Source: Psychrobacter maritimus
GTDB taxonomy: Bacteria; Pseudomonadota; Gammaproteobacteria; Pseudomonadales; Moraxellaceae
Length of the DNA: 64,000 nt
Reading direction: 5' to 3'
Assembly (NCBI RefSeq): GCF_904846345.1
Contig: NZ_CAJHAJ010000002.1
Span: 124,001-188,000, forward strand
Both the position numbers and the translations under genes were made by a program. How positions within the stretch are numbered: the stretch's first letter is position 1; every line of letters begins with the position of its first letter. The notes beneath the pieces are model-generated. The model did no database searches and was not told the origin of the DNA. It saw only the letters and a program-made list of their open reading frames with translations. Shown one piece after another: positions 7,762-23,096 of the stretch.

Positions 7762-7792
7762 GTCAACCCATTAACCAGCAGTGAGCATCAGC

Positions 7793-10603
7793 ATGAGTGA
7801 GCAGCGCCCCAATCCAGAAGATTTACTGCAGCAAATAAAGCAGCAAGAAAATACGCGCAGCAGAGGTAAACTAAAAATCTTCTTTGGGTCATCGGCAGGC
7901 GTTGGCAAGACTTATGACATGCTCTCTGCCGCCCATCGAGACCAAGCGCATGGGCTGGATGTCTTAGTCGGCATTGTAGAAACTCATGGCCGCAGTGAGA
8001 CAGCAGCATTGTTAGATGGATTGACAATGCTGCCGTTACGTCAGGTTGAGTATCGAGAGCAAACCTTGGTGGAGTTTGATATTGATGGGGCTTTAGCGCG
8101 GCATCCAGATATTTTATTGGTTGATGAGCTGGCGCATAGCAATATCCCAGGCTCCAGACACCCAAAGCGCTGGCATGACGTTGAGGAGTTATTAAAGGCA
8201 GGCATCAGCGTCTATACCACGGTTAATGTTCAGCATTTAGAAAGCCTGAATGATGTGGTCAATCAAATCACCGGGGTCGTGGTACAAGAAACCATCCCCG
8301 ATTGGTTCTTTGATCAGGCCAATGAGGTGGTATTGGTCGACCTGCCAGCCGATGAGCTATTATCGCGACTGCATGACGGTAAGGTCTATATCCCAAGCCA
8401 AGCCAAACATGCGATAGAAAACTTCTTTCGAAAGGGCAATCTAATTGCCCTACGCGAGCTGGCATTGCGTCGAACTGCTGACCTAGTCGATGCCGATATG
8501 CGAGACTATCGCAATCAATCGCGTATTTCATCTATCTGGAATACCACCGATCAGTTATTAGTAGGCATCAGTACGCGCGCGCATAGCGAACGCCTTATTC
8601 GTCACGCCGCCAGACTTGCCAGCAGTTTACACTCGCAGTGGTATGTTATCTATGTCGAGACGCCGCGAAATGCCCATGAGCTGTCCAAAAATAAGCAAAG
8701 CATTTTAGAGGCATTACGCTTAGCAGATGAGTTGGGCGCCAAGACAGAAATCATCAGCGCTATTAGCGTCGCTGAAGGTTTGGTCAGTTATTCCCATCAA
8801 TTTAATATTGGGCGTATTATTATCGGCCAGAATCACTCTAGGTTTTATTATAATCAATCATTGGTCAAACAGATCTCACAGCAGGATATCAATTTAGACT
8901 TGATATTGGTCAATCAAGCTACACAGACAAAAAGCCCCCGTAGCAAACGACAACTGCCTACTTGGGATATGGCCGCCCTAGCCTCTAAAGACAATCGCAT
9001 CGGTTATCTGATGGCTGTTTTAGGTTGTACGCTCGTCACCGTCAGCCTAGTCGCCCTGACGCGCTGGTTTGATTTAGCCAATGTGGTGATGCTATATTTG
9101 CTAGTCATTGTGTTCATCTCGGTTCGCTTTGGGCGCGCCCCTGGTATCTTTGCGGCGCTATTAAGTGTCATCAGCTTTGATTTGTTTTTTGTAGAGCCTA
9201 AGCTTTCTTTTAGTGTTAGCGATGTCCAGTACTTAGTCACCTTTGCGGTGATGATTGTCGTCTCATTGATTATCAATAACTTAGCGGTTGGACTACGATT
9301 TCAGGCGCAAAATGCCCGTAGACGTGAGCAACAAGCGATCTCTATGAGTCATTTGGCACAAAGTCTCAGTGCGGCGCGCAAAAATGAAGAAATCATCAAT
9401 CAAGCTATTATTTGGCTGACCAAGCATATCGCTAGTAAAGCGCTCATAGCGATGCCCAATGCTGACGGTAAATTGACTGTCGTCTCAGAATCGAGCATCC
9501 CCTCAGAGTTTAATTGGAATGTGACGCAATGGGTGTTTGATCATAAAGAAAGCGCGGGTCTAGCGACCCATACGCTGGCCGCCAATCCTATGCACTATCG
9601 GGCGCTTGCGACCTCAAGTCAGGTACTGGCGGTATTGGCACTGATGCCAACCGATACCGATAATTTTAATCAACCGGAACAACAACGTACCCTCGATGTC
9701 GCTATCGCCCAAATTACTTTAGCTTTAGAGCGTGTTTATTACGCCAAAGTTGCACAAAATGCCCTTATCAAAGTGGAGTCAGAACGTCTGCGCGGCTCGC
9801 TCTTATCCGCGTTGTCTCATGATATTCGCACTCCGATTACCGTGCTATCAGGATTGGCCGCTTGTCTTGCCAGCCAAAACCTAGCACCTGCTGCACAAAA
9901 GCAGCTGGCTATCGATATCGAACAGCAAGCCAATGTCATTCAGCGTTTGGTCATCAATATCTTAGATTATGTGGCGCTGCAATCTGGCGGTATGAAACTC
10001 AATAAGCAATGGGTAAGCTTGGAAGAGATTATCGGTAGTAATATACGCCAACTTGAACCGTATCTACAAAATCGGCAAGTCAAAATAGACGTGGCCAGTG
10101 CAGTCGATTTTATTTATACCGATGAATTAATCTTGGCACGGATTTTAAACAACCTGCTGACCAATGCGATTAATTACACCTCAGACAATGCAACTATCAC
10201 CATTCAAGCGACACTCACTAATCAGCCCAACACTCAAAACCTGCAAAACAATAAAACCGTGCAAAGCTACCAAATAACGGTAACCGACAACGGTCAAGGG
10301 CTGCCATTAGGGATGGAAGCGCAAATATTTGAACGTTTTACCCGCGGTGATAGTGAAAGTAATACAACAGGATTGGGATTGGGACTGGCGCTCAGTAGAG
10401 ACTTGGTCCAGCACTTAGGCGGCACACTAAGCGCGAGCAATATACAACCGCACGGTGCGCAATTTGTTATAGTGCTACCGTGGCAGCCTTTAGAAAATCT
10501 AGATATATTTGATGATAAATTTACATCAAATGTGACTCAGATAGAGACAATCATAGATGCAAACATAACTACAAATACAACTACTAGCTCTGAAAGCTTA
10601 TAA
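7793..10603 (+). CDS. kdpD: KdpD, potassium sensor histidine kinase
   Basis: A 936-residue hybrid sensor kinase. In order: KdpD N-terminal domain with Walker A GSSAGVGKT (about 32-40), a universal-stress-protein-like domain (about 250-370), four membrane spans (about 400-500), a GAF-like region and a histidine kinase core with the H-box ALSHDIRTP (His676), an N-box around NNLLTNAINYT, and G-boxes DNGQGLP and [10 protein letters not shown] prefer the ATG at 7793, preceded by GTGAG at 7 bp; an in-frame GTG at 7781 would add four residues. The C-terminal 40 residues after the kinase core are Thr/Asn-rich and probably disordered. It controls KdpE. Confidence 0.95.
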   Translation: MSEQRPNPEDLLQQIKQQENTRSRGKLKIFFGSSAGVGKTYDMLSAAHRDQAHGLDVLVGIVETHGRSETAALLDGLTMLPLRQVEYREQTLVEFDIDGALARHPDILLVDELAHSNIPGSRHPKRWHDVEELLKAGISVYTTVNVQHLESLNDVVNQITGVVVQETIPDWFFDQANEVVLVDLPADELLSRLHDGKVYIPSQAKHAIENFFRKGNLIALRELALRRTADLVDADMRDYRNQSRISSIWNTTDQLLVGISTRAHSERLIRHAARLASSLHSQWYVIYVETPRNAHELSKNKQSILEALRLADELGAKTEIISAISVAEGLVSYSHQFNIGRIIIGQNHSRFYYNQSLVKQISQQDINLDLILVNQATQTKSPRSKRQLPTWDMAALASKDNRIGYLMAVLGCTLVTVSLVALTRWFDLANVVMLYLLVIVFISVRFGRAPGIFAALLSVISFDLFFVEPKLSFSVSDVQYLVTFAVMIVVSLIINNLAVGLRFQAQNARRREQQAISMSHLAQSLSAARKNEEIINQAIIWLTKHIASKALIAMPNADGKLTVVSESSIPSEFNWNVTQWVFDHKESAGLATHTLAANPMHYRALATSSQVLAVLALMPTDTDNFNQPEQQRTLDVAIAQITLALERVYYAKVAQNALIKVESERLRGSLLSALSHDIRTPITVLSGLAACLASQNLAPAAQKQLAIDIEQQANVIQRLVINILDYVALQSGGMKLNKQWVSLEEIIGSNIRQLEPYLQNRQVKIDVASAVDFIYTDELILARILNNLLTNAINYTSDNATITIQATLTNQPNTQNLQNNKTVQSYQITVTDNGQGLPLGMEAQIFERFTRGDSESNTTGLGLGLALSRDLVQHLGGTLSASNIQPHGAQFVIVLPWQPLENLDIFDDKFTSNVTQIETIIDANITTNTTTSSESL

Positions 10604-10710
10604 AATCAGTCTCTCCAACATTGTTAGAAACTTGGGCGCAGTCATTACTTCATTATTTCATTACCTCATTACTGCCTCAAGCTTCCCTTATAAGTAGCAA
10701 ATACCCTACC

Positions 10711-11394
10711 ATGAAAACCATCTTAATCATTGAAGACGAAGCCCATATTGCCCGCTTTATCAAATCAGCGATGGAGCAAGAAGGCTATCAAGTCTACGCT
10801 GCCGATAGCTCGCAACGCGGACTAATTGAAGCGGCCTCTCGCCGCCCAGACTTATTGATATTAGACCTAGGTCTCCCAGATGCGGATGGTTGCGATGTCA
10901 TCTCAGACATTAGGGCGTGGTCATCGCTGCCCATTTTAGTACTGTCGGCGCGCAGTGACGAGCAAGATAAAATCAAAGCTTTAAATTTAGGTGCCGATGA
11001 TTATTTGGTAAAACCCTTTAGCATGGGCGAGCTAATCGCTAGGGTCAACGCCCAGATGCGCCGCTGGCAAGCCGGTTATGAGGCACCGGTTGTATTAGCA
11101 TTAGGCAATGTCAGTATTGATTTGGCACAACGGCACGTTAAGAAAAATGGCGAAGACATTCATTTAACCCCGATTGAATATCGCTTACTGACTGTACTCA
11201 TTAAAAACGCCGAAAAGGTCATGACGCATCAGCAACTGCTAAACGAAGTATGGGGTAAAGGTCACAACCACCAAGAGCACTATGTGCGTATATTTATGTC
11301 AAATTTACGTCAAAAACTAGAGGACAACCCTTCTAGACCTAGTTATTTCTTCACTGAAATTGGCGTTGGTTATAAGCTGCATATTCCCAAATAG
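10711..11394 (+). CDS. kdpE: KdpE, response regulator of the kdp operon
   Basis: A 227-residue OmpR-family regulator. The receiver domain is at 1-115 with acidic pocket EDE at 8-10, phospho-acceptor Asp52 in LILDLGLPDADG and the KPF motif near 100. The winged-helix DNA-binding domain is at about 130-225. The open frame extends upstream to 10621, but the ATG at 10711 gives the usual N-terminus (MKTILIIEDE). It follows kdpD by 107 bp and closes the kdpFABCDE operon. Confidence 0.95.
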   Translation: MKTILIIEDEAHIARFIKSAMEQEGYQVYAADSSQRGLIEAASRRPDLLILDLGLPDADGCDVISDIRAWSSLPILVLSARSDEQDKIKALNLGADDYLVKPFSMGELIARVNAQMRRWQAGYEAPVVLALGNVSIDLAQRHVKKNGEDIHLTPIEYRLLTVLIKNAEKVMTHQQLLNEVWGKGHNHQEHYVRIFMSNLRQKLEDNPSRPSYFFTEIGVGYKLHIPK

Positions 11395-12161: not shown

Positions 12162-12177
12162 TTGAACAATCACTCAA
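12162..12177. promoter_or_regulatory. TetR operator, copy 1
   Basis: TTGAACAATCACTCAA, an imperfect 16-bp palindrome of the TTGAG-N6-CTCAA family found seven times between here and 21703. It is probably bound by the TetR protein encoded at 21004-21603. Confidence 0.6.
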
Positions 12178-12229
12178 AAAACATTACAATCCATAAATAC
12201 AATATTTGGTGGGTTTCTTGCACCTATAG

Positions 12230-12245
12230 TTGAGCAATCATTCAA
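12230..12245. promoter_or_regulatory. TetR operator, copy 2
   Basis: TTGAGCAATCATTCAA, same family as copy 1, with a 68-bp centre-to-centre distance. Confidence 0.6.
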
Positions 12246-12471
12246 AATATAGCAAATTTTGGACTCAGTATTAACCTTTCTAAGCTTAGAAAAGCCGCCA
12301 GCTATTCTCAACAATATGGTGTCTATCTATATAACTAAAAAGTAACATATAACCACCCGTAATGAAAAAGTAGATTATAGTAAGACTAATGACATCGCTA
12401 CGTGCTTATAAATAATACTTTTTAGATTCTATCACTGATACCCTTTGCACTCTTATTTAGCCGGACATTTC

Positions 12472-14676
12472 ATGATTAAAAGAATATTTTTAATACTGTT
12501 AATATTGATATTAGCGGCAAGCTTTTTTCATTTTGACCTAAATCAATTATTGACGCTTGACGGCTTAAAAGGGTCGATGGCGCAATTTAACGACTATAAA
12601 GCGCAATCACCGCTATTAGTTATCGGTGGGTTCTTTTTACTTTATGTCGTCGTCACCGCCCTATCCTTACCGGGTGCAGCTATTTTGACCTTAGCAGCTG
12701 GGGCATTATTTGGCTTATGGCAAGGGTTACTGGTCGCCTCATTTGCCTCTAGCATTGGTGCGACACTCGCCTTTTTAACCTCACGTTATTTACTGCGTGA
12801 TACGATTAAGCAGCGTTTTCCTGAACGCTTAGCAGCCATTGATGCTGGCGTTGAAAAAGAAGGCGGGTTTTACTTATTTACCCTGCGCTTGGTGCCGATA
12901 TTTCCGTTCTTTTTGATTAATTTACTCATGGGCGTCACCGCGATTAAAGCGAGGACATTCTACTGGGTAAGCCAAGTTGGTATGCTCGCGGGCACTTTTG
13001 TATTCGTTAATGCCGGTACGCAACTGGCGCAAATTGACAGTTTGTCAGGGATTTTATCGTTTAATTTAATCGTCTCATTTGCGTTGTTAGGTTTCTTCCC
13101 ATTAATGGCAAAAGGGATATTGAATATGCTAAAAAAGCGCCGCGTCTATAAAAACTACAACAAACCTAAAAAATTCGACCGTAATATGATTGTGATTGGC
13201 GCTGGTGCTGGCGGGCTAGTCACCAGCTATATCGCGGCGACCGTCCGAGCAAAAGTGACCTTAATCGAAGCGGGTGAGATGGGTGGAGACTGCTTAAACT
13301 ATGGCTGTGTACCCAGTAAAGCCCTCATTAAAAGCGCAAAAGTCGCAGAACAGATGCGCCATGCTGAGCGTTACGGCTTAGAAAATACACCACCAGAGTT
13401 CTCATTCAAAAACGTCATGACACGCATCCATAAAGTCATCGCTGATATCGCGCCAAACGATAGCGTCGAGCGTTATACGGACTTGGGTGTCGAAGTATTA
13501 AAAGGCTACGCTAAATTTATCGACCCATGGACGGTAGAGATTGCGCTAAACGATGGCGGCACGCAAACACTCACCGCACGTTCCATCGTTATCGCGACTG
13601 GCGCGCGTCCATTTGTACCAGACTTGCCCGGTTTAGAAGAAACCGGCTATGTGACCAGCGACACCATATGGAATAAGTTTACCGAATTAGAAGAAGCACC
13701 GAAAAAACTGGTCGTCCTTGGCGGCGGGCCAATCGGCTCTGAGCTGGCGCAAGCCTTTGCACGCTTAGGCTCAAATGTCACCCAAATCGAAAGAGGCGCG
13801 CGTCTTATGAAAAAAGAAGACGTGGAAGTCTCTGAATTTGCACAGCAAGTACTCGTCGAGAGTGGCGTGAATGTCTTAACCTCGCATCAAGCGATTCGCT
13901 GTGAAGCTCGCGATGGTAAAAAGTTCATTATCGTTCAAGCGCAAGGCGATAATATAGATAAGCAAAGCAGTACCGATAAGCAAGACAGTCAAAACAAACA
14001 AGAAATCGCTATTGAATATGACGAATTGCTTTGTGCCGTTGGACGCAGTGCGCGCTTAAAAGGCTATGGGCTTGAAGATTTGGGCATCGAAACTGAACGT
14101 ACCATCGAGACCGATGACTATCTAGAAACTCTCTACCCCAATATTTACGCTGCTGGTGATGTCGTCGGCCCTTATCAATTTACTCATGTGGCTTCCCATC
14201 AGGCATGGTTCGCCGCCGTAAACGGTTTATTTGGACATCTAAAGAAGTTTAAAGTAGATTACCGTGTGATTCCGTGGACGACTTTTATTGATCCAGAAGT
14301 CGCACGCGTGGGCCTAAATGAGCAAGAGGCTGTTGAAAAAGGCATCGACTTTGAGGTTACCCGCTACGACTTTAAAGACTTAGATCGTGCGGTGACGGAA
14401 AGCGCCAACGCTGGCTTTATCAAAGTCATTACGCCAAAAGGTAAAGATAAAATACTCGGCGTGACCATCGTCGCTGAGCATGCTGGGGATATCATGCCGG
14501 AGTTTATATTAGCGATGAAACATGGCTTAGGGCTAAATAAAATACTCGGCACCATTCATATGTACCCGACATGGGCGGAGGGCAATAAATACGCGGCTGG
14601 TGAATGGAAGCGCAATCATGCGCCTGAAACAGTATTAAACTGGCTTGAGAAATACCATACATGGCGTCGAGGTTAA
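12472..14676 (+). CDS. TVP38/TMEM64 (DedA-like) membrane domain fused to a flavin disulfide reductase
   Basis: A 734-residue two-part protein. Residues 1-235 form a TVP38/TMEM64 (SNARE-associated) membrane domain with about six spans and the GAILTLAAGALFG and LRLVPIFPFFLIN motifs. From residue 239 a pyridine nucleotide-disulfide oxidoreductase follows: FAD Rossmann motif VIGAGAGG, redox pair Cys274/Cys279 in GGDCLNYGCVPSKA, NAD(P)H motif VLGGGPIGSELAQ, and dimerisation domain with IHMYPTWAEG. It resembles mercuric reductase but lacks the N-terminal metal-binding domain and the C-terminal Cys pair, so a mercury role is doubtful. An upstream in-frame TTG (12445) is less likely than the ATG. It heads an operon with ynjBCD and ynjF. 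Confidence 0.85.
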   Translation: MIKRIFLILLILILAASFFHFDLNQLLTLDGLKGSMAQFNDYKAQSPLLVIGGFFLLYVVVTALSLPGAAILTLAAGALFGLWQGLLVASFASSIGATLAFLTSRYLLRDTIKQRFPERLAAIDAGVEKEGGFYLFTLRLVPIFPFFLINLLMGVTAIKARTFYWVSQVGMLAGTFVFVNAGTQLAQIDSLSGILSFNLIVSFALLGFFPLMAKGILNMLKKRRVYKNYNKPKKFDRNMIVIGAGAGGLVTSYIAATVRAKVTLIEAGEMGGDCLNYGCVPSKALIKSAKVAEQMRHAERYGLENTPPEFSFKNVMTRIHKVIADIAPNDSVERYTDLGVEVLKGYAKFIDPWTVEIALNDGGTQTLTARSIVIATGARPFVPDLPGLEETGYVTSDTIWNKFTELEEAPKKLVVLGGGPIGSELAQAFARLGSNVTQIERGARLMKKEDVEVSEFAQQVLVESGVNVLTSHQAIRCEARDGKKFIIVQAQGDNIDKQSSTDKQDSQNKQEIAIEYDELLCAVGRSARLKGYGLEDLGIETERTIETDDYLETLYPNIYAAGDVVGPYQFTHVASHQAWFAAVNGLFGHLKKFKVDYRVIPWTTFIDPEVARVGLNEQEAVEKGIDFEVTRYDFKDLDRAVTESANAGFIKVITPKGKDKILGVTIVAEHAGDIMPEFILAMKHGLGLNKILGTIHMYPTWAEGNKYAAGEWKRNHAPETVLNWLEKYHTWRRG

Positions 14677-14728
14677 GTAGATTTTTTATCAACTGCGCTA
14701 AAAATATGTAATCATAACGGAAACTTAA

Positions 14729-16048
14729 ATGTACGTTATTAAATCTTTACCAGCTTTGCCAACGCTAAAAAATCTAAGCCGCTATAGCGCCTATGCTATG
14801 GCGCTTAGCGTTTGTGCAGTTATTTCTTCAAGCATATCAGCAAGCACTGCCTCACTCACTACCGATGACCTTAATCAAAATTTATCATCTTGGCAGCAGA
14901 TAGAGGTGCAAGGTAAAAACCAAGACGTTTACTTCTATGCATGGGGCGGTGACCCGCAGATCAATGCCTATCTACAGTGGGCAGCTAAGCAAGTAGATGA
15001 TAAATATAATATCAATTTAGTCCATGTGAAATTAAGCGACACCAGTGAAGCCGTCAGTCGCGTACTTGCGGAAAAGTCTGCCAACAATAATGATGAAGGC
15101 AGCGTTGATCTCATCTGGATAAATGGCGCAAACTTTGCCACCATGAGTGAGAACTCATTATTGCTGAAACAATGGGCGAACAAGCTGCCTAACTTTGCCT
15201 TGACCGATCCAGAGAATAATCCTGCCGTTAACTTTGATTTTGGTGTGCCAACCAATGGTATGGAAGCGCCATGGGGTCAAGCCTCACTGACTTTTTATTA
15301 CGACAGTTTATCAACGAATAAGCCACCAACCACTTTAAATGAGCTGGTCAATTGGACGGCGCAAAACCCCGGGCGTTTTAGCTATCCAAAGCCGCCTGAC
15401 TTTTTAGGAATGAGTTTTTTAAAATACGCTTTAGTCATGCTGCATGAAAAGCAGGATACGAACACAGGCGAAAACACAAAAGCACAGCTCAACTTGCCAG
15501 CCACTGAGCAAAATTCAGATATGATATTAGCCCCTTTATGGACGTTTCTCGATGATTTGCATCCCACTCTATGGCGCAAGGGTGAGCAATTTGTGCAAAC
15601 GGGCGCGCACATGCGGCGTTTGGTCGATGATACCGAGCTTAGCTTAGCATTTAGCTTTTCCGCGCCTGAAATTCCTGCGGCCGTGCAGCGTTATGATTTA
15701 CCTCAGAGTATTCGTAGCTATGCCATGAGTGATGGAAGCTTAAGTAACACCCATTTTGTGGCCATTCCTTATAACGCCAGCCATCCGCAAGCGGCGCAGT
15801 TAGTCGCAAATTTCTTGATAAGCCCAGAAGCACAGGCCAAAAAACAAACGCCTTCTATATGGGGTGATAAAACCGTACTCGTCCAATCTACGCTCGACCC
15901 TGAGCAACAAGCGCTATTCAAGACTAACAAACCCCATCCGAGCGCCCTACCGGTTGACGCGATAAAACGTACCGTAAATGAACCACATCCAAGCTGGGTT
16001 GATGCCATTATGCAAGGCTGGCAGGCGCGTTATGGGGTCAGCCCATGA
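14729..16048 (+). CDS. ynjB: ABC transporter substrate-binding protein, YnjB type
   Basis: A 439-residue periplasmic solute-binding protein. Residues 1-43 are a long signal peptide with a hydrophobic core around 21-38 and a cut near ISAST. The mature part belongs to the YnjB branch of the spermidine/thiamine/iron-binding superfamily, with VYFYAWGGDPQINAYLQW and LIWINGANFATM as family signatures. The ligand is unknown. It lies 52 bp after the reductase fusion and overlaps ynjC by 4 bp (ATGA). Confidence 0.85.
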   Translation: MYVIKSLPALPTLKNLSRYSAYAMALSVCAVISSSISASTASLTTDDLNQNLSSWQQIEVQGKNQDVYFYAWGGDPQINAYLQWAAKQVDDKYNINLVHVKLSDTSEAVSRVLAEKSANNNDEGSVDLIWINGANFATMSENSLLLKQWANKLPNFALTDPENNPAVNFDFGVPTNGMEAPWGQASLTFYYDSLSTNKPPTTLNELVNWTAQNPGRFSYPKPPDFLGMSFLKYALVMLHEKQDTNTGENTKAQLNLPATEQNSDMILAPLWTFLDDLHPTLWRKGEQFVQTGAHMRRLVDDTELSLAFSFSAPEIPAAVQRYDLPQSIRSYAMSDGSLSNTHFVAIPYNASHPQAAQLVANFLISPEAQAKKQTPSIWGDKTVLVQSTLDPEQQALFKTNKPHPSALPVDAIKRTVNEPHPSWVDAIMQGWQARYGVSP

Positions 16049-17805
16049 GTAAAGATTCTAATAATAAAACGGCTGATTCAAGCACTAGAACGATAGATCC
16101 TTATAAAACAGACCTATTTACGCGCATTGTATCCTTGAGTCCGAAATTTTTACTGCTACTGCTAATATTACCCGTACTCGGTGGTTTGCTCAGTGTGCTG
16201 TTACCTGCCTTTAGCTGGGTACCTGCACTTGAGCAAACGACTTTTGGTCTACAAGGCTTTAACAATCTTTGGCAGACGCCGGGTCTTACCCAAATGGTAG
16301 CGTTAAGCATCGCTACTGGATTAATCAGCACGTTACTCGCTTTTGTCATGACTTTAATGATATTGGCGGCATTTTTTAATAGCGTTTGGTTGACCCGTAT
16401 TGAGCGCTTGCTGAGTCCAATCTTGGTCATTCCTCATGCAGCGGCAGCCATTGCGGTTAGCTTTTTAATTGCGCCTTCTGGTATGTTTTCACGCCTTATT
16501 TCACCGTGGCTTAGCGGCTGGGAATTGGCGCCAAACGGTATCTTTCCGCATGACCCCTACGGCATCAGTATCATTTTGGGTTTAACCTTAAAAGAGCTGC
16601 CGTTTTTATTATTAATGGCACTAGGCGCTTTGGCACAACCAGAACTTGGTAGAAAGCTGCGTCAGCAGTATAAAATTGCGCTAAATCTCGGCTATTATCC
16701 CATCACTGCCTTTTTTAAAGCCGTACTCCCTATCCTCTATCCTTTTTTACGTTTGCCTATCTTAGCCGTGCTCGCCTATGCCAGTGCCAGCGTAGAGATG
16801 CCATTGATACTCGGTCCAAACACGCCGCCAACGCTCGCGGTTACTATCATGCAATGGTTTAACGATGTGGATTTAAACTTACGTATAAAAGCCTCGGCAG
16901 GCGCATTATTACAGCTGGCGTTGACGGGTAGCTTAATCGCCTTGTGGCTCGGCGCTGAGAGAGCGATAAAAGCTTGCTTTAATGGCACATTGATAAATGG
17001 CAAGCGCAACTATGCCGATGCACTCTGGCAAAAAATTACCGCAGCGTTGACCACTGTGGTGATTGGCTTTATTTTGCTAGCGCTCATTGGTCTGGTCATG
17101 TGGTCAATAGCTGGTTTTTGGCGCTTTCCAGCCGTATTGCCAGAGCAGTTGGTGTTATTACATTTTCAAAGTGCCTTTACGCAAATGAGCACGCCATTAT
17201 TTAATACTCTTGCTATCGGTATCGTGAGTACCGTATTTGCCATTGTGCTGACATTGTTATGTTTGGAAGCTGAGCAATTAAGTAAAAAATCTCTTTCAAC
17301 ATTTACCAGTTTTATTATCTATTTGCCGCTGTTAGTGCCCAGTATTGCCTTTTTATTTGGGTTGGTGTGGTTGCAACAATTGGTGAATAACCAAACGGCG
17401 TTTTTTAATGTGGCGTTTACCCATCTGCTTTTTGTACTGCCTTATGTGTTTTTATCGCTTGCCAGTAGCTACAGGCGTCTAGACCCGCGCTTTGCTCATG
17501 TAGCCGCAAGCCTTGGGGCGACCCCAGCAAAAGTATTTTTGCAGGTGAAATTGCCACAATTATTTGCGCCGCTGTTAATTGCTATCGCCCTTGGTTTGGC
17601 TATTAGCTTTGGTCAATACTTGCCGACGTTGTTAGCAGGTGGTGGACGTATCGCCACCATCACTACCGAAGCTGTGACTCTCGCAAATGGTGCCAGTAGG
17701 CGCACCAGTGCGGTGTATGCCATCATCCAAATGGCACTGCCGTTAATTGGCTTTATATTGGCGTGGGTATTGCCGAAGTATTTCTTTAAAAGTGGCACTC
17801 GTTAG
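16045..17805 (+). CDS. ynjC: ABC transporter permease, YnjC type (two fused permease domains)
   Basis: A 586-residue inner-membrane protein with about twelve spans in two halves (about 60-300 and 330-580), each a binding-protein-dependent transport permease domain. The second half carries an EAA-like loop, HVAASLGATPAKVFLQVKLP. This is the duplicated ThiP/FbpB-like architecture of E. coli YnjC. The start overlaps ynjB, indicating coupled translation. It works with YnjB and YnjD. Confidence 0.88.
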   Translation: MSKDSNNKTADSSTRTIDPYKTDLFTRIVSLSPKFLLLLLILPVLGGLLSVLLPAFSWVPALEQTTFGLQGFNNLWQTPGLTQMVALSIATGLISTLLAFVMTLMILAAFFNSVWLTRIERLLSPILVIPHAAAAIAVSFLIAPSGMFSRLISPWLSGWELAPNGIFPHDPYGISIILGLTLKELPFLLLMALGALAQPELGRKLRQQYKIALNLGYYPITAFFKAVLPILYPFLRLPILAVLAYASASVEMPLILGPNTPPTLAVTIMQWFNDVDLNLRIKASAGALLQLALTGSLIALWLGAERAIKACFNGTLINGKRNYADALWQKITAALTTVVIGFILLALIGLVMWSIAGFWRFPAVLPEQLVLLHFQSAFTQMSTPLFNTLAIGIVSTVFAIVLTLLCLEAEQLSKKSLSTFTSFIIYLPLLVPSIAFLFGLVWLQQLVNNQTAFFNVAFTHLLFVLPYVFLSLASSYRRLDPRFAHVAASLGATPAKVFLQVKLPQLFAPLLIAIALGLAISFGQYLPTLLAGGGRIATITTEAVTLANGASRRTSAVYAIIQMALPLIGFILAWVLPKYFFKSGTR

Positions 17806-17851
17806 AAATAACATCTATCAACTTATTTTAAAAGTAACTAAAGGGTCCTTG

Positions 17852-18496
17852 ATGCAATCCTCTTTACAGATAAAAGACTTACAGTTATATCGACAAGACA
17901 CGCTACTCCTCAGCCTAGATGAGCAGATTTCTGGTGGTGAAATATTGACTGTCATGGGGCCATCTGGTAGTGGCAAATCAAGCTTATTGAACTGGCTAAC
18001 AGGTACTTTACCAAACGGTTTTACCGCTACTGGTGAGGTCTGGTTAAATGATAAAAACGTAAGCCATCTGCCGACGCACCTGCGTCATATTGGGGTACTG
18101 TATCAAGACGCCCTACTGTTTTCGCATTTATCAGTAGCGGGTAATATTGCTTTTGCGATGCCTAAAAGCAATAAGACAGGAGATAGAAAACAGCGTAGTG
18201 AAAAAATAGAACAGGCGCTGGCACAAGTGGGATTAGCCGGCATGGGAAGTCGCCATCCTGACAATTTATCGGGCGGACAACAAGCACGAGTGGCGCTACT
18301 GCGCACCTTGCTCAGCGAGCCAAAAGCGATCCTACTAGACGAGCCTTTTAGCAAGCTCGATACCCAGCTAAGAGTAGATACACGCCAACTAGTATTTGAG
18401 CAAATTCGCACTCATAAGCTCCCTGCTATCATGGTCACGCACGATCATAGCGATGCTGAGGCCGCAAAGGGTAAAGTTATTCATTTAGACCTGTAG
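17852..18496 (+). CDS. ynjD: ABC transporter ATP-binding protein, YnjD type
   Basis: A 214-residue ABC ATPase, matching E. coli YnjD in length. Walker A is GPSGSGKSS, the signature is LSGGQQARVALLRTL, Walker B is AILLDEPFSKLD, and the switch is VTHDHSDAEA. The frame is open upstream into ynjC, but the ATG at 17852 preceded by AAGGG gives the conserved N-terminus. Confidence 0.92.
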   Translation: MQSSLQIKDLQLYRQDTLLLSLDEQISGGEILTVMGPSGSGKSSLLNWLTGTLPNGFTATGEVWLNDKNVSHLPTHLRHIGVLYQDALLFSHLSVAGNIAFAMPKSNKTGDRKQRSEKIEQALAQVGLAGMGSRHPDNLSGGQQARVALLRTLLSEPKAILLDEPFSKLDTQLRVDTRQLVFEQIRTHKLPAIMVTHDHSDAEAAKGKVIHLDL

Positions 18497-18546
18497 TTCT
18501 AGAACTCTAATCTGAAACACCAAAGCGAAATATAAAAGGCAAGCGC

Positions 18547-19188
18547 ATGCTAGACAAATTTCTTACGCCCATGATTAAGCCGATACTAGCCCCTGTGGTA
18601 ATTGTATTGCACAAACGCGGCATTACGGCTGATCAACTCACGGTAGCGGGCTTTTTAATCGGCATGTTAGCCTTACCATTACTTGCGTTTGAGCTTTGGT
18701 ATGGCGCACTGGCAGCGATTGCGCTGAATCGTATTTTTGACGGTCTTGATGGCGCGCTAGCTCGCCATGCACAGCAAAGCTCAAGCGCAGGCGGCTACTT
18801 AGATATTACGCTTGATTTTCTCTTTTATGCAGCAGTGCCGCTGGGTTTTATCTTGGCAAATCCTGAACAGAACGCCATTGCAGGTGCGTTATTACTTGCT
18901 ACCTTTATCGGCACAGGCTCTAGCTTTTTGGCGTTTGCCATTGCTGCCGAAAAGTTTAAACTGGATAAACCACAGTTCAAATATAAAAGCTTTTATTATT
19001 TAAACGGTTTGACGGAAGGTACTGAGACTATTGCGCTGTTTGTTGCCTTTTGCCTTTGGCCGCAGCACTTTGTACTACTCGCTGGCATTTTTGCAACGGC
19101 CTGCGCGATTACGATTTTTACCCGTATCCATGGTGGCTATCATACCCTCAAGCAGCTAGAGACTGATGCCATAGTCGGTTCAAAATAA
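18547..19188 (+). CDS. ynjF: CDP-alcohol phosphatidyltransferase, YnjF type
   Basis: A 213-residue membrane enzyme. The CDP-alcohol phosphotransferase motif appears as DGLDGALAR followed by GGYLDITLDF. This family swaps CMP on a CDP-alcohol for a second alcohol to make phospholipid headgroups or related lipids. YnjF's substrate is not established. It lies 50 bp after ynjD, as in the E. coli ynj cluster, though ynjE is missing here. Confidence 0.85.
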   Translation: MLDKFLTPMIKPILAPVVIVLHKRGITADQLTVAGFLIGMLALPLLAFELWYGALAAIALNRIFDGLDGALARHAQQSSSAGGYLDITLDFLFYAAVPLGFILANPEQNAIAGALLLATFIGTGSSFLAFAIAAEKFKLDKPQFKYKSFYYLNGLTEGTETIALFVAFCLWPQHFVLLAGIFATACAITIFTRIHGGYHTLKQLETDAIVGSK

Positions 19189-19238
19189 AAAAATATGGTC
19201 ACAATATCCTGCTGGTGTGAACCCTCAAGAGGTAAGTA

Positions 19239-20045
19239 ATGACTAACGAAGTATGGTGGCGTCTTGGGTTCTTTTTGAGCATTTTAGTGATTATGATGCT
19301 GATTGAGTGGCGCATGCCTGCACGTAAAGCGCCGATCAAAAGCAGTAAACGCTGGTTCGCTAACTTTGGTTTGGTGTTTGCGTCATCCGTTATTGCTCGT
19401 CTAGCCGTGCCTGTCGGTCTAACGGCTGTGGCACTTTATAATCAGCAGCATAAAATTGGCTTATTCAATATTATCGATTTGCCAAGCATTGTTGTCATCA
19501 TATTAAGCTTAATATTGCTCGACATCATCATTTACTGGCAACATCGATTATTCCACCGCGTGCCTATTCTGTGGCGTTTGCATAAAGTTCATCACGCTGA
19601 TGCACATGTTGATGCCAGTACAGGGCTTAGGTTTCATCCTATTGAAATTGTTTTAAGCATTTTAGTGAAGCTCGTTGCCGTCAGCTTGTTGGGCGTCCCT
19701 GCCATCGCGGTACTGATTTTTGAGATTGCCCTAAATGGCTTAGCGATGTTTAACCATGCCAATATTCGCTTGCCACCTGCGATCGAAAAACCTGCGCGCT
19801 TAATATTAATGACGCAGATTTTGCACCGTATCCACCACAGCCAACGCGTCAGTGAAACCAACTCAAACTATGGTTTTAGCGTTATTTGGTGGGATTGGAT
19901 TTTTGGTAGTTATAAAGGCGCTGCGCAGAAGCCTGATAACGAGCTAGATATTGGCTTAAAAGAATATCCCTCACCTAAACAGAATGCTTCACTTTGGGGA
20001 TTGCTCGTAATGCCGTTTAAAGGCCATTCATTTAAACGCAAATAA
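19239..20045 (+). CDS. Sterol desaturase/fatty acid hydroxylase family protein
   Basis: A 268-residue membrane di-iron enzyme of the fatty acid hydroxylase superfamily. The histidine boxes are HRLFH, HKVHHAD, and HRIHHSQ. About four membrane spans. In bacteria these enzymes hydroxylate or desaturate lipid chains or carotenoids; the substrate cannot be read from sequence. It sits 50 bp after ynjF with its own ribosome binding site (AAGAGGTAAG), so it is likely the last gene of the operon. The pairing with a phospholipid headgroup enzyme suggests envelope lipid modification. Confidence 0.85.
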   Translation: MTNEVWWRLGFFLSILVIMMLIEWRMPARKAPIKSSKRWFANFGLVFASSVIARLAVPVGLTAVALYNQQHKIGLFNIIDLPSIVVIILSLILLDIIIYWQHRLFHRVPILWRLHKVHHADAHVDASTGLRFHPIEIVLSILVKLVAVSLLGVPAIAVLIFEIALNGLAMFNHANIRLPPAIEKPARLILMTQILHRIHHSQRVSETNSNYGFSVIWWDWIFGSYKGAAQKPDNELDIGLKEYPSPKQNASLWGLLVMPFKGHSFKRK

Positions 20046-20096
20046 AGTTTTGCGTTCATCTACTCATCCTTGAATGTAAATCACACTTACAAATAA

Positions 20097-20112
20097 ATGA
20101 GCGTTCATTCAA
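20097..20112. promoter_or_regulatory. TetR operator, copy 3
   Basis: ATGAGCGTTCATTCAA, a degenerate member of the operator family, first of three in front of the YnjA-like gene. Confidence 0.55.
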
Positions 20113-20119
20113 TTATAAT

Positions 20120-20135
20120 TTGAGCGTTTGCTCAA
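20120..20135. promoter_or_regulatory. TetR operator, copy 4
   Basis: TTGAGCGTTTGCTCAA has perfect 6-bp arms. It lies 23 bp (about two helical turns) from copy 3, so dimers could bind on the same face. Confidence 0.65.
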
Positions 20136-20191
20136 AATGATTTATAGTGGTCGCAGTTGTCGAGCTACTTAATAAAATCCTATCTATCAAA

Positions 20192-20207
20192 TTGAGCGTT
20201 CACTCAA
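20192..20207. promoter_or_regulatory. TetR operator, copy 5
   Basis: TTGAGCGTTCACTCAA, with 5-bp perfect outer arms, 81 bp before the start of the YnjA-like gene. Confidence 0.65.
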
Positions 20208-20288
20208 ATATATATGGTTTATTTTCTAGTACCTCACTTCATATGATTACTAAAACCATTCATTAATTACTATTAGAAGGACTTTTAT

Positions 20289-20843
20289 ATGACTGAATTT
20301 ACCCTACACGACAAAAACACCGCTCCAGCAGAAAGCAAAGACTTGCTTGATGTATCTATCAAGGCATTTGGCATGGTACCTAATCTACATGCCGTCATGG
20401 CTGAAGCGCCTGGCTTGCTCGAAGGCTATCAGCGCCTGCATCAGTTGTTTTTAGACAGCAGTTTTGATGATGAAGAAATCACGGTCGTTTGGCAAACCAT
20501 CAACGTCGAGCATGAGTGCCATTACTGCGTCCCTGCCCATACAGGCATTGCCAAAAGCATGAAAGTAGACGACGCAATCACCGAAGCCTTGCGTAACGAG
20601 ACGCCATTAGCAACTGAAAAACTAGAAGCATTACGCGACTTTACGCTATCGGTCGTTCGTGATCGTGGTAACGTCAATGACGAGGCGGTACAAGCGTTCT
20701 TGGATGCAGGCTTTACCAAACGTCATATTTTAGAAGTGGTACTTGCAGCGGCGCAAAAAGTCATGAGCAACTACACCAACCATTTGGCCAACACGCCAAT
20801 CGACAAGCCTTTCCAAAAGTTTGAATGGCATAAAGTAAGCTAG
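20289..20843 (+). CDS. Carboxymuconolactone decarboxylase/AhpD-fold protein, YnjA-like
   Basis: A 184-residue AhpD-fold protein with the redox motif EHECHYCVPAHTG (Cys77, Cys80, His84), the arrangement used by alkylhydroperoxidase AhpD-type proteins. Length and family match E. coli YnjA, which lies beside ynjBCDEF; I infer correspondence but not orthology. The ATG is preceded by AGAAGGAC. Three TetR operators in its promoter suggest tight control. It is likely monocistronic: a hairpin follows at 20931-20963. Confidence 0.85.
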   Translation: MTEFTLHDKNTAPAESKDLLDVSIKAFGMVPNLHAVMAEAPGLLEGYQRLHQLFLDSSFDDEEITVVWQTINVEHECHYCVPAHTGIAKSMKVDDAITEALRNETPLATEKLEALRDFTLSVVRDRGNVNDEAVQAFLDAGFTKRHILEVVLAAAQKVMSNYTNHLANTPIDKPFQKFEWHKVS

Positions 20844-20930
20844 TAAAAGATTGGTTAAAGGATAGCTAAGCTAAGGATTTCGCTTAGTCTTAGGATTTGG
20901 CTTCAGCTCTGTAATAGTAATAGCATTTAC

Positions 20931-20963
20931 GGCTGTATGGTAATCATCATACAGCCCTTTTAT
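20931..20963. terminator. Intrinsic terminator between convergent genes
   Basis: GGCTGTATG (20931-20939) pairs perfectly with CATACAGCC (20948-20956) across an 8-nt loop and is followed by CTTTTATT. It ends the YnjA-like transcript and may also serve the convergent tetR gene. Confidence 0.75.
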
Positions 20964-21003
20964 TAGGATAAAGAACTATACCTTGGTATGTTATTGTCTT
21001 AGC

Positions 21004-21603
21004 TTAGCCATCAAGGCGCAGCGCTTCTATAGACAATGCCATATCTTCAGCCAATGCATGTACTGCCTCGCTATCGACATCACGCTGGGCAAAGGCGCGT
21101 AGCCCCATGACTTCAGCCTGTAAGCGTCGCCCTAGTCTGGTCGCATCCAGCGTACTATACAGCTCACCAAGTTGCTGCGCGGCACTAAAGCAATCGATAA
21201 AGCGCGTCTCCATGCCTGCCAGCAGCATTTCAACTTTTTGTAGCGCTGCTTGTTCACGAGCGCCAAGCTCGAGCAAGCTTTTGACCAACATACAGGCCTG
21301 ACTTGGCAGCTCCTTGTCCCGTATGCCGCCGAGCTGACGCACATAAGCGGCCAACCCGAGCAAAGGCGATTCGTGATGGCTTAATATACGCTCAAGCTCC
21401 GTCAGACCCAATCGAGCATAATAATCCAATGCTTCTTGAAACAGTCCATCTTTACTGCCAAATGCAGCATAAATGCTACCTGGACGCATATCGAGTGCTT
21501 CTTCAATATCTTTTAAAGATGTGGCATGAAAGCCTTTTTGCCAAAAAAGCTTTAGCGCTCGCTCTAAAGCTTCCTGACGGTTATACAGTGCGGTACGTGA
21601 CAT
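21004..21603 (-). CDS. TetR-family regulator, probable controller of the ynj-like block
   Basis: A 199-residue TetR repressor. The helix-turn-helix is at about residues 10-55, with LKLFWQKGFHATSLKDI and MRPGSIYAAFGSKDGLF; the remainder is the helical ligand-binding domain, containing cysteines in QACML and FIDCF. It lies convergent to the YnjA-like gene and divergent from the HAD gene. Two operators (21665-21703) sit upstream of its start, one a perfect palindrome, consistent with autoregulation. Five copies of the same motif lie at the two ynj-type promoters. Ligand unknown. Confidence 0.88.
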   Translation of the reverse strand: MSRTALYNRQEALERALKLFWQKGFHATSLKDIEEALDMRPGSIYAAFGSKDGLFQEALDYYARLGLTELERILSHHESPLLGLAAYVRQLGGIRDKELPSQACMLVKSLLELGAREQAALQKVEMLLAGMETRFIDCFSAAQQLGELYSTLDATRLGRRLQAEVMGLRAFAQRDVDSEAVHALAEDMALSIEALRLDG

Positions 21604-21664
21604 AATATATTCCCATGTTTAAAAACCATGACCTCAAATGATGAAATAAGCACGGCTGTACTAT

Positions 21665-21680
21665 TTGAGTAATTACTCAA
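21665..21680. promoter_or_regulatory. TetR operator, copy 6 (perfect palindrome)
   Basis: TTGAGTAATTACTCAA is an exact 16-bp palindrome, the best of the seven sites, placed in the tetR/HAD divergent promoter. Confidence 0.75.
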
Positions 21681-21687
21681 TTTTATC

Positions 21688-21703
21688 TTGAATGATTACT
21701 CAA
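21688..21703. promoter_or_regulatory. TetR operator, copy 7
   Basis: TTGAATGATTACTCAA, 23 bp centre-to-centre from copy 6, repeating the spacing of copies 3 and 4. This supports cooperative binding of two dimers. Confidence 0.65.
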
Positions 21704-21813
21704 GTCCAGTTAAAGTAAATTGAACCAATTCTGCAATGTTACCCGCAGTCAGAACCATCCCCCCCTAACTATAAAGCTGCGGACAGCATCTATCACGATA
21801 TATAGGAGCCTTT

Positions 21814-22512
21814 ATGCCGTCTAATCCATCACCCTCAGTCATCGTATTCGACGTTAATGAGACGCTGCTCGATATCGATAGCCTCGCGCCTTTATTTGCT
21901 CGACTATTTGGTGATGATAGAATATTAAGGGAATGGTTTGCCCAATTGGTGCTTTATTCGCAAACCATGACATTGTCGAATCTTTACACTCCTTTTGGCG
22001 AGCTTGGTGTTGGTGCATTACAGATGACAGCCGATATACATAGCGTTACGCTGACAGATAGCGATATTAATGAATTTAAGCAGCGTATGAATGAGATGCC
22101 AGCGCATCCTGATGCTGCACCAGCCTTAACCAAACTACGTGACGCAGGGTTTAGGCTAGTAACCTTGACCAATTCAGCCACTAGGGCCTCGCCTACGCCA
22201 CTTGAACAGGCAGGATTAAGTGAGTTTTTTGAGCAGTCTTTTAGCGTTGAGACAGTAGAAAAATTCAAGCCTGCACCTGAAACTTATCAGATGGTGGCAA
22301 ATATATTATCTGTAGAGATGGCAGACCTTTGCCTTGTTGCCTGTCATCTTTGGGATACGATTGGCGCGCAAGCGGCGGGCTGTCAGGCAGCATTTGTCAC
22401 GCGATCTTATAATGCCTTACTGCCCGCCGCCAAAGTACCAACGCCGGACTTTATAGCGGCAGACCTTATTAGCATTGCTGAACAAATCATTGCTCAAAGT
22501 CAAATATCGTAA
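21814..22512 (+). CDS. Haloacid dehalogenase type II
   Basis: A 232-residue HAD-superfamily hydrolase of the L-2-haloacid dehalogenase type. The nucleophile is Asp13 in IVFDVNETLLD, where Asn and Glu stand in place of the second Asp of phosphatases, as in dehalogenases. Motif II is TLTNS and the conserved Lys lies in EKFKPAPETY. The closing acidic motif is altered to HLWDTIGAQAAG. Real haloacid activity is not proven for most members. GGAGCC lies upstream of the ATG. It shares the operator region with divergent tetR. Confidence 0.85.
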   Translation: MPSNPSPSVIVFDVNETLLDIDSLAPLFARLFGDDRILREWFAQLVLYSQTMTLSNLYTPFGELGVGALQMTADIHSVTLTDSDINEFKQRMNEMPAHPDAAPALTKLRDAGFRLVTLTNSATRASPTPLEQAGLSEFFEQSFSVETVEKFKPAPETYQMVANILSVEMADLCLVACHLWDTIGAQAAGCQAAFVTRSYNALLPAAKVPTPDFIAADLISIAEQIIAQSQIS

Positions 22513-22559
22513 AAGATTTATGCCAAGCCCATTAATATAAAACGTCAAAGGATAACACC

Positions 22560-23096
22560 ATGCAATCAGATAACAGCCAAAAACTTCGCGCCGGCACTCC
22601 ATTTCCTGATATACAGGTACAAATGCTAGATGGTGAGATAAAATCATTAGGCAAGCCTGAAAATGGTCATGATTGGAAACTGGTAGTGGTTTACCGCGGT
22701 AAGCATTGTCCCATTTGTACCAAGTACCTCAATCAGTTAGAGACGATAAAAAGCGCATTTTTTGATACTGGTGTCGATATCATTGCCATATCAGGAGATA
22801 GTAAACAGCAGTTAGAGGAGCATTTAGAAAAACTAACTATCAGCTTTCCGATAGCTTATGGTTTGACGATTGAGCAGATGCAGACGCTAGGTCTGTACAT
22901 CTCTGACCCACGCTCAGAGAAGGAAACCGATCATCCCTTTGCCGAGCCTGGGGTGTTCGTGATTAATGCTGAAGGGGAAATTCAAATCATAGACATCTCG
23001 AACGCTCCGTTTGTCAGACCTGAGCTTGAAGCCCTTGCAAACGGCTTGTCTCTTATTCGAGAAAACGATTATCCTATTCGTGGCACACATGAGTAA
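22560..23096 (+). CDS. Peroxiredoxin-like (AhpC/TSA, redoxin family) protein
   Basis: A 178-residue thioredoxin-fold protein with GTPFPDIQV near the N-terminus and the CPIC centre (Cys50, Cys53) in YRGKHCPICTKYL. It lacks the classic peroxiredoxin TxxC spacing and resembles the alkyl-hydroperoxide-reductase-like group found beside oxidoreductases. It follows the HAD gene by 47 bp, so both probably share the TetR-controlled promoter. No signal peptide. Confidence 0.8.
   Translation: MQSDNSQKLRAGTPFPDIQVQMLDGEIKSLGKPENGHDWKLVVVYRGKHCPICTKYLNQLETIKSAFFDTGVDIIAISGDSKQQLEEHLEKLTISFPIAYGLTIEQMQTLGLYISDPRSEKETDHPFAEPGVFVINAEGEIQIIDISNAPFVRPELEALANGLSLIRENDYPIRGTHE

Follow-up and report, generated by a model that had tools for sequence, protein, structure and literature searches.

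A predicted TetR regulon in Psychrobacter maritimus, marked by a 16-bp operator and probably responsive to thiol-reactive compounds

The window analysed here is a 64,000-nucleotide stretch of the Psychrobacter maritimus genome (assembly GCF_904846345.1, contig NZ_CAJHAJ010000002.1, positions 124,001 to 188,000). Between its positions 12,162 and 23,096 lies a block of genes that includes a TetR-family repressor, which the initial annotation had read as a TetR regulon held together by seven copies of a 16-bp operator, TTGAG-N6-CTCAA, at three promoters. All seven sites were found; they stand at the promoters of the DedA-reductase operon and of the AhpD-like gene and between the divergent tetR and HAD genes. 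The features of the block are as follows.

12162–12177, unstranded: operator 1, a motif match whose left half, TTGAAC, is the −35 element of a promoter-like site, TTGAAC-17-TACAAT
12230–12245, unstranded: operator 2, a motif match 68 bp from operator 1
12472–14676, plus strand: VTT (DedA/TVP38) domain fused to a flavin adenine dinucleotide (FAD) disulfide reductase of the MerA/lipoamide dehydrogenase kind, with a CLNYGC redox motif
14729–16048, plus strand: YnjB-family substrate-binding protein (SBP), above the NF008633 cut-off and 40% identical to E. coli YnjB
16045–17805, plus strand: YnjC-like ATP-binding cassette (ABC) permease, by domain match, 29% identical to E. coli YnjC
17852–18496, plus strand: YnjD-like ABC ATPase, by domain match, 46% identical to E. 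coli YnjD
18547–19188, plus strand: YnjF-like CDP-alcohol phosphatidyltransferase (PF01066), 60% identical to YnjF
19239–20045, plus strand: membrane enzyme of the fatty acid hydroxylase/sterol desaturase type (PF04116; OlsE model below cut-off)
20097–20112, unstranded: operator 3, one mismatch to the refined motif
20120–20135, unstranded: operator 4, left half the −35 element of TTGAGC-17-TATAGT, kept in relatives
20192–20207, unstranded: operator 5, a motif match
20289–20843, plus strand: AhpD-fold/carboxymuconolactone decarboxylase (CMD)-family protein with an ECHYCVPAH motif, of the altE kind and not YnjA
21004–21603, minus strand: TetR-family repressor (PF00440), Cys104 invariant in relatives
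21665–21680, unstranded: operator 6, a perfect 8+8 palindrome adjoining the tetR −10 element (TAAAAT)
21688–21703, unstranded: operator 7, left half the −35 element of TTGAAT-17-TAAAGT, conserved upstream of the HAD gene
21814–22512, plus strand: type II haloacid dehalogenase (HAD), above the TIGR01428 cut-off
22560–23096, plus strand: AhpC/TSA (peroxiredoxin-like) protein with a CPIC motif, starting 47 bp after the HAD gene

The sites at 20120, 20192 and 21665 match TTGAG-N6-CTCAA without mismatch, those at 12162, 12230 and 21688 with one and that at 20097 with two. This loose motif proved to be common: with up to two mismatches it occurred 48 times in the window against 30.7 expected, and with one mismatch 138 times in the whole genome against 57 for the reversed control, so that it was rejected as proof of a regulon by itself. 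A refined motif, TTGARYRNNYRYTCAA, was derived from the window sites together with those of relatives, and hence partly from the sites being tested. Six exact copies were counted in the 3.18-Mb genome of the strain, with none for the reversed control; the scan gave this total without positions and, since the block itself holds six exact copies, none lies elsewhere in the genome. The loose form is not specific, and the refined form is. As the refined motif stems in part from the window, the independent test is its conservation in relatives, which it passed.

The arrangement of the sites relative to promoter elements was also conserved. The promoter scan placed the −35 elements of sigma-70-like promoters with 17-bp spacers at the start of operators 1 and 4, in a scan whose total of 29 promoter-like sites compares with 23.6 expected, which leaves single matches with little weight. 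In alignments of the relatives' upstream regions, TATAGT (AhpD-like gene) and TAAAGT (HAD gene) keep their spacing to the operator in almost every row, and the tetR −10 element TAAAAT directly abuts the operator; the TTGAAT-17-TAAAGT at operator 7 is a by-eye reading of the alignment, uncalled by the promoter scan. The 23-bp spacing that the pairs at 20097/20120 and 21665/21688 had been said to share was borne out, and it recurs in relatives for 30 of the 32 close pairs upstream of the AhpD-like gene (22 bp in the other two), for 5/5 upstream of HAD and for 6/6 upstream of tetR, counts that include sites with up to two mismatches and in which the HAD and tetR pairs share most of their DNA. Operator pairs 68–70 bp apart, as operators 1 and 2, were seen again in many relatives.

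Conservation was examined in 60 Psychrobacter genomes (G and L numbers below denote genomes and loci). A TetR orthologue, defined at 65% identity or more, was found in 35 of them, the AhpD-like gene in 35 and the SBP gene in 36. TetR and the AhpD-like gene occurred together in 33 genomes, TetR only in two, the AhpD-like gene only in two and neither in 23 (p = 3e-12; both co-occurrence p values overstate the association, the genomes being related). Sites were counted at 55 loci from 40 genomes, the window stretch included and the paralogue loci L085 and L183–L186 and the other-genus locus L084 omitted. Among the loci examined, an exact site lay within 1 kb upstream of tetR in 34/35 genomes, of the AhpD-like gene in 34/35 (the miss, G001, is cut by a contig end), of the reductase operon in 29/36 and of HAD in 10/10. 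Exact copies of TTGARYRNNYRYTCAA numbered 178 in 111.6 kb of target DNA, meaning DNA upstream of any of these four, against 4 in 677 kb elsewhere, and the reversed control gave 0 and 0; the looser motif with one mismatch gave 173 and 49, its reversed control 0 and 22. The four non-target copies fall in an FrnE promoter (L083) and in an AhpD promoter region at a contig end (L160), which are likewise promoters of the regulon.

The operon carried a site in 29 of 32 genomes with TetR versus none of three without it (Fisher p = 0.003, one contig-cut genome dropped); the operons lacking an exact site where TetR was not found are those of G004, G011, G031 and G070, G031 being cut by a contig end. Where the operon is unlinked from tetR it retains its site, at a distance of about 1.2 Mb in G021 or 1.3 Mb in G061 and on another contig in G062. 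The scan of related genomes that the initial annotation had suggested thus bore out its proposal: the sites are conserved and specific, they track these genes, and they are retained when the genes are unlinked. Control of these genes by this TetR, exerted at these operators, is in our view nearly certain. Genes that look unrelated would thereby become a single testable regulon with a defined operator, a regulator and a candidate sensor cysteine.

Additional exact sites were sought by motif in seven genomes, and 12 places outside the block were read, one of them (L261) from G019 and the rest from those seven genomes. Convincing promoters were those of an unlinked reductase gene with a pair of exact sites at 69-bp spacing (L256), an unlinked HAD gene whose two sites, one mismatched, are spaced by 22 bp (L258), a gene for a DUF6789 membrane protein, assigned by Pfam, with two exact sites (L255) and perhaps the N-ethylmaleimide reductase gene nemA of G075 (L265), with one; the others were intragenic or at unclear places. 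In the two genomes of L165 and L164 no TetR orthologue was detected and the reductase-YnjBCD operon is kept, with no site in one and a single one-mismatch site in the other; the operon can thus exist under a different control.

An FrnE/DsbA gene follows the AhpD-like gene on the same strand within 450 bp at 34 of the 35 AhpD loci of Psychrobacter, a count that includes broken copies in G018 and G079; the window is the exception. The core in Psychrobacter is tetR, the AhpD-like gene and, at those 34 loci though not in the window, the FrnE/DsbA gene. In several genomes a gene for YghU, a glutathione-dependent disulfide-bond oxidoreductase scoring above its cut-off, and a peroxiredoxin-like gene come next. 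The corresponding gap of the window (20844–21003), where the FrnE/DsbA gene of relatives is missing, holds a terminator-like hairpin at 20931–20956.

Beyond the genus, the best 80 of at least 593 genome-contig stretches with TetR loci were used, 28 from Psychrobacter and 52 from others, among them Halomonas, Marinobacter, Cobetia, Thioclava and Celeribacter. An exact site was present within 400 bp upstream of tetR in 28/28 Psychrobacter and 45/52 other loci, and in 0/80 for the reversed control. In flanks of up to 4 kb, an AhpD-like gene (above 45% identity) was found in 43 of the 52 non-Psychrobacter loci and was both divergent and adjacent in 38; HAD followed with 9, YghU with 5, FrnE with 2 and SBP with 1, while the reductase, hydroxylase and CDP-alcohol transferase were found in none at the identity limits set (above 45% for the latter two). 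These counts define a core of tetR and the AhpD-like gene, and the regulon is found in gamma- and alphaproteobacteria. A 38-row tree gave no sign of horizontal transfer of tetR between Psychrobacter and the other genera, its 12 Psychrobacter rows forming one clade (98/98).

The repressor itself resembles thiol-switch regulators. It has the N-terminal helix-turn-helix TetR fold of NemR-, AltR- and CifR-type repressors (PF00440 and a structure model with a pLDDT of 89), the best fold match of the model being CifR (Z 21.3), with NemR at Z 19.0. Like members of that class it has an inverted-repeat operator in its own promoter, in the 34 of 35 genomes given above. Of its two cysteines, Cys138 is not conserved and Cys104 is invariant in 67/67 aligned sequences, an alignment that includes a few rows from the same genome, three paralogues and NemR, from which one short row was dropped and in which AltR is not among the rows. 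Cys104 aligns with NemR Cys106 and is also invariant in a second alignment (A2) of 26 rows. Excerpts of PMC7464077 assign reactive-chlorine sensing by NemR to Cys106 and electrophile sensing to Cys21 and Cys116, so Cys106 is not its only sensor. AltR Cys100 is described as essential for release by thiosulfinates (PMC13178969, in part).

A paralogue of this TetR, 35–40% identical, occurs in many Psychrobacter genomes near a glutathione S-transferase gene (L167:1703-2281, L168:4168-4746, L184:2090-2656), in some genomes also with genes for an ABM/YgiN-like protein and a haloalkane dehalogenase. A variant palindrome, ATGAACGGTCGTTCAA, recurs near it, and nemA of G061, G062 and G001 has a comparable half site in its upstream region.

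The initial gene calls were right in kind, with the exception of the "YnjA-like" label: blastp of the AhpD-like protein to E. coli YnjA gave no match at E 1e-3, and orthology was rejected. For the DedA-reductase the best solved sequence match is a mercuric reductase (MerA), an identity that was also rejected, as models for MerA, RclA and hypothiocyanous acid (HOSCN) reductase all scored below cut-off. Its translated C-terminus is without the C-terminal cysteine pair of MerA, and a tyrosine stands at the position of the catalytic histidine of glutathione reductase. In the Psychrobacter loci examined the reductase motif GGDCLNYGCVPSK was found 34 times and the C-terminal active-site stretch YPTWAEG 26 times. 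A 134-aa gene (L066:3473-3874) lies just upstream of the reductase, between it and the operator, in 24 of 34 reductase loci and has no match in the window; it was DoxX/MauE-like by models below cut-off only, and that identity was not accepted. Just upstream of the block, and outside it, the window encodes a large sensor kinase and a response regulator, KdpD/KdpE-like by eye (7781–11394).

From these sequence features we infer how repressor binding, a cysteine switch, the ligand class and the roles of the importer and lipid enzymes may fit together. The TetR is probably a NemR/AltR/CifR-type autorepressor whose signal would be thiol-reactive oxidants or electrophiles. Its dimers would occupy 16-bp palindromes overlapping −35 or −10 elements and so keep three promoter regions, with four transcription units, switched off. 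Modification of Cys104 in the ligand domain by a thiol-reactive compound, such as an oxidised sulfur species (a thiosulfinate, for example), hypohalous or hypothiocyanous acid or a product of these, or another soft electrophile, would then release it from DNA. Derepression would yield the AhpD-like CxxC protein; the membrane-tethered FAD disulfide reductase with the YnjBCD importer, the CDP-alcohol transferase and the lipid-type hydroxylase; and the HAD hydrolase with the peroxiredoxin-like protein. Jointly these products would clear the agent and its mixed disulfides by reduction or detoxification and restore the membrane. Thiol-reactive stress is favoured because related gene pairs confer tolerance: altE encodes a carboxymuconolactone decarboxylase-family and altC a DsbA-family protein (PMC8417944), altC/altE pairs of several genera raised thiosulfinate tolerance (PMC12306174), and the ahpD and dsbA/frnE-like genes of PfAR-1 each gave allicin resistance (PMC7119367), according to excerpts of these papers. 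The redox theme of the initial annotation thus found support; its suggestion of an imported small molecule as the signal is supported by none of the tests. YnjBCD/YnjF and DedA-reductase proteins, for which the literature available in part gives no tested function, would in this way be tied to thiol-stress type control.

Several observations weigh against this picture. The tetR of G030 lacks an exact site (a one-mismatch site is present), the operon lacks one in G002, G018 and G032 although TetR is present there, and one of the 35 tetR copies, that of G079, has two in-frame stops. Without a TetR orthologue found, the AhpD-like gene nevertheless keeps two exact sites in G072 and three in the fragmented assembly G031, and the operon of G004 has one one-mismatch site. 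For nemA, which encodes the classic electrophile reductase, a single locus among the 30 tested had an exact site (59 genomes have the gene), and nemA was rejected as a genus-wide member. In the window genome FrnE is encoded elsewhere and not beside the AhpD-like gene. AltR was not released by N-ethylmaleimide, diamide, H2O2 or disulfides (excerpts of PMC13178969), and such selectivity for thiosulfinates means that a shared cysteine does not fix the ligand. Lastly, the ABC importer, the CDP-alcohol transferase and the hydroxylase have no clear place in thiol repair.

Alternatively, the TetR might bind a small molecule non-covalently, for instance a halogenated organic acid or another xenobiotic taken up via YnjBCD, the block serving uptake and detoxification with HAD as the dehalogenase. 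The HAD score above the type II haloacid dehalogenase cut-off, the SBP-dependent importer within the regulon and the haloalkane dehalogenase near the TetR paralogue in relatives all fit this reading. We nonetheless hold it to be rather unlikely, as the gene found most often with tetR in the other genera is that of the AhpD-like CxxC protein, in many cases with neither importer nor HAD nearby (43 loci against 1 and 9 of 52), and the sole invariant cysteine sits at the NemR/CifR position. A regulon for envelope or phospholipid remodelling, in which the VTT protein, CDP-alcohol transferase and hydroxylase alter the membrane in response to a lipid or fatty acid signal and the redox genes are accessory, would account for the three membrane- or lipid-type genes of the main operon, and E. 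coli ynjABCD is reported to be weakly raised by BaeR overproduction (PMC2731931, in part). Since other genera keep tetR and the AhpD-like gene without hydroxylase or CDP-alcohol transferase, at the limits given above, we regard this as improbable.

A further alternative is that a second TetR protein, such as the paralogue, also binds the operators or is their chief reader, which the sites kept in G031, G072 and G004 would fit. The paralogue lies near an AhpD gene in several genomes (L158, L159, L167–L171, L173–L177) and shares most of the recognition region with the orthologue; ATGAACGGTCGTTCAA is one mismatch from the refined motif, and the paralogue's closest relatives in other genera adjoin AhpD with exact motif copies (L231, L233, L371). 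Yet the window genome has the sites and no paralogue at E 1e-15, and the orthologue's own promoter has an exact site in nearly every genome with it, which leaves this explanation very improbable. We therefore retain a thiol-reactive signal as the preferred reading.

A parallel to the module exists on enterobacterial plasmids, most of them of cattle or milk origin. One Citrobacter plasmid together with 23 further plasmid records at 99% identity or more (24 in total, 21 covering at least 80% of the query) hold tetR-HAD-CMD, a TVP38-reductase, a second FAD enzyme, SBP, permease, ATPase and CDP-alcohol transferase genes, with a Tn3 transposase adjoining in both records read. Between tetR and HAD lie an exact and a mismatched site, separated by 23 bp. 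Of the 21 records stating a source, 14 were bovine, veal or milk, six were human isolates and one was stool; the copies are near-identical, some from one study, and are thus not independent. Among 5,426 complete E. coli genomes the module was present in three (veal, veal, chicken). The plasmid proteins are 61% (CMD), 53% (reductase), 39% (SBP), 38% (TetR) and 34% (HAD) identical to those of Psychrobacter; the plasmid SBP, at 67%, is closer to E. coli YnjB, so the transporter part has a different history. A Klebsiella plasmid from milk (L379:14099-27832) carries, in a Tn3-flanked region with TetR, HAD, CMD, reductase and YnjBCDF, a bufferin-like DUF2282-MbnB-DUF2063-DoxX cluster (an MbnB-type enzyme) and DUF6789, as well as an ECF-type sigma factor, SulP and a universal stress protein. 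Bufferins have been tied to copper (PMC12452194, in part).

As a speculative and on balance unlikely extension, the DedA-disulfide reductase with YnjBCD/YnjF might form a membrane detoxification machine for oxidised sulfur or hypohalous/hypothiocyanous species, of which a version put together separately and sharing the operator pair would be a transposon-borne tolerance module of cattle and milk origin on enterobacterial plasmids, for which lactoperoxidase oxidants in milk or sanitisers used in dairies may have selected. If true, the orphan ydj-ynj genes would gain their first function.

No published description of this regulon was found in the literature, as far as its accessible portions go. 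The E. coli ydjXYZ-ynjABCDEF stretch, to which the gene set had been likened, similarly groups relatives of YnjB, C, D and F (identities as listed) with a VTT-domain protein, the VTT domain being 30–32% identical to YdjX/YdjZ. That part of the parallel stands. The AhpD-like protein is not matched there, no block protein matches ydjY or ynjE (blastp, E 1e-3), and the E. coli stretch is without a TetR or an operator, no site with zero or one mismatch having been found when it was scanned; the window adds the reductase, hydroxylase, HAD and peroxiredoxin-like protein. The available part of PMC12096828 names neither ynj nor ydjX. COG0398 DedA-pyridine nucleotide-disulfide oxidoreductase fusions, as described in part of PMC10127716, show the same domain fusion as the window; that text ties the subfamily to aerobic metabolism and, in the excerpts available, names no function or regulator for the fusion.

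CifR of Pseudomonas aeruginosa, solved with operator DNA, is the best fold match and second-best sequence match of the repressor (27–28% identity), with the cysteine aligned, and differs in a gene set unrelated to the block. CifR controls an epoxide hydrolase locus. The E. coli NemR regulon (nemR-nemA-gloA) shares the TetR fold, the aligned sensor cysteine (Cys106) and autorepression; in contrast, NemR is 16% identical, and the block is without nemA or gloA.

The alt (allicin/thiosulfinate tolerance) clusters with AltR of Pantoea, Pseudomonas and Burkholderia (PMC13178969, PMC12306174, PMC7119367, PMC8417944, in part) share a TetR with a conserved sensor cysteine and autoregulation via an inverted repeat, an altE-kind protein, a disulfide reductase and thiol-redox genes, as well as, in relatives of the window, the altC-kind DsbA/FrnE partner. 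TetR and an altE-kind CMD protein stand together in 33 of the 35 genomes with TetR, the window included, the likeness to AltE and AltR being one of family, as distinct from a sequence comparison with either. The AltR box is CAATCTAC-N6-GTAGATTG and the window's is TTGAG-N6-CTCAA, the sites at these promoters being TTGARYRNNYRYTCAA (no scan aimed at the AltR box was run). The block also lacks the alkene reductase, short-chain dehydrogenase/reductase and thioredoxin of alt and adds the DedA-reductase, YnjBCDF and HAD. With a different operator and with altC missing from the window block, alt membership itself was rejected. As analogies, the alt-type cluster and NemR-like thiol-switch repressors offer a better parallel to this regulon than does E. 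coli ydj-ynj.

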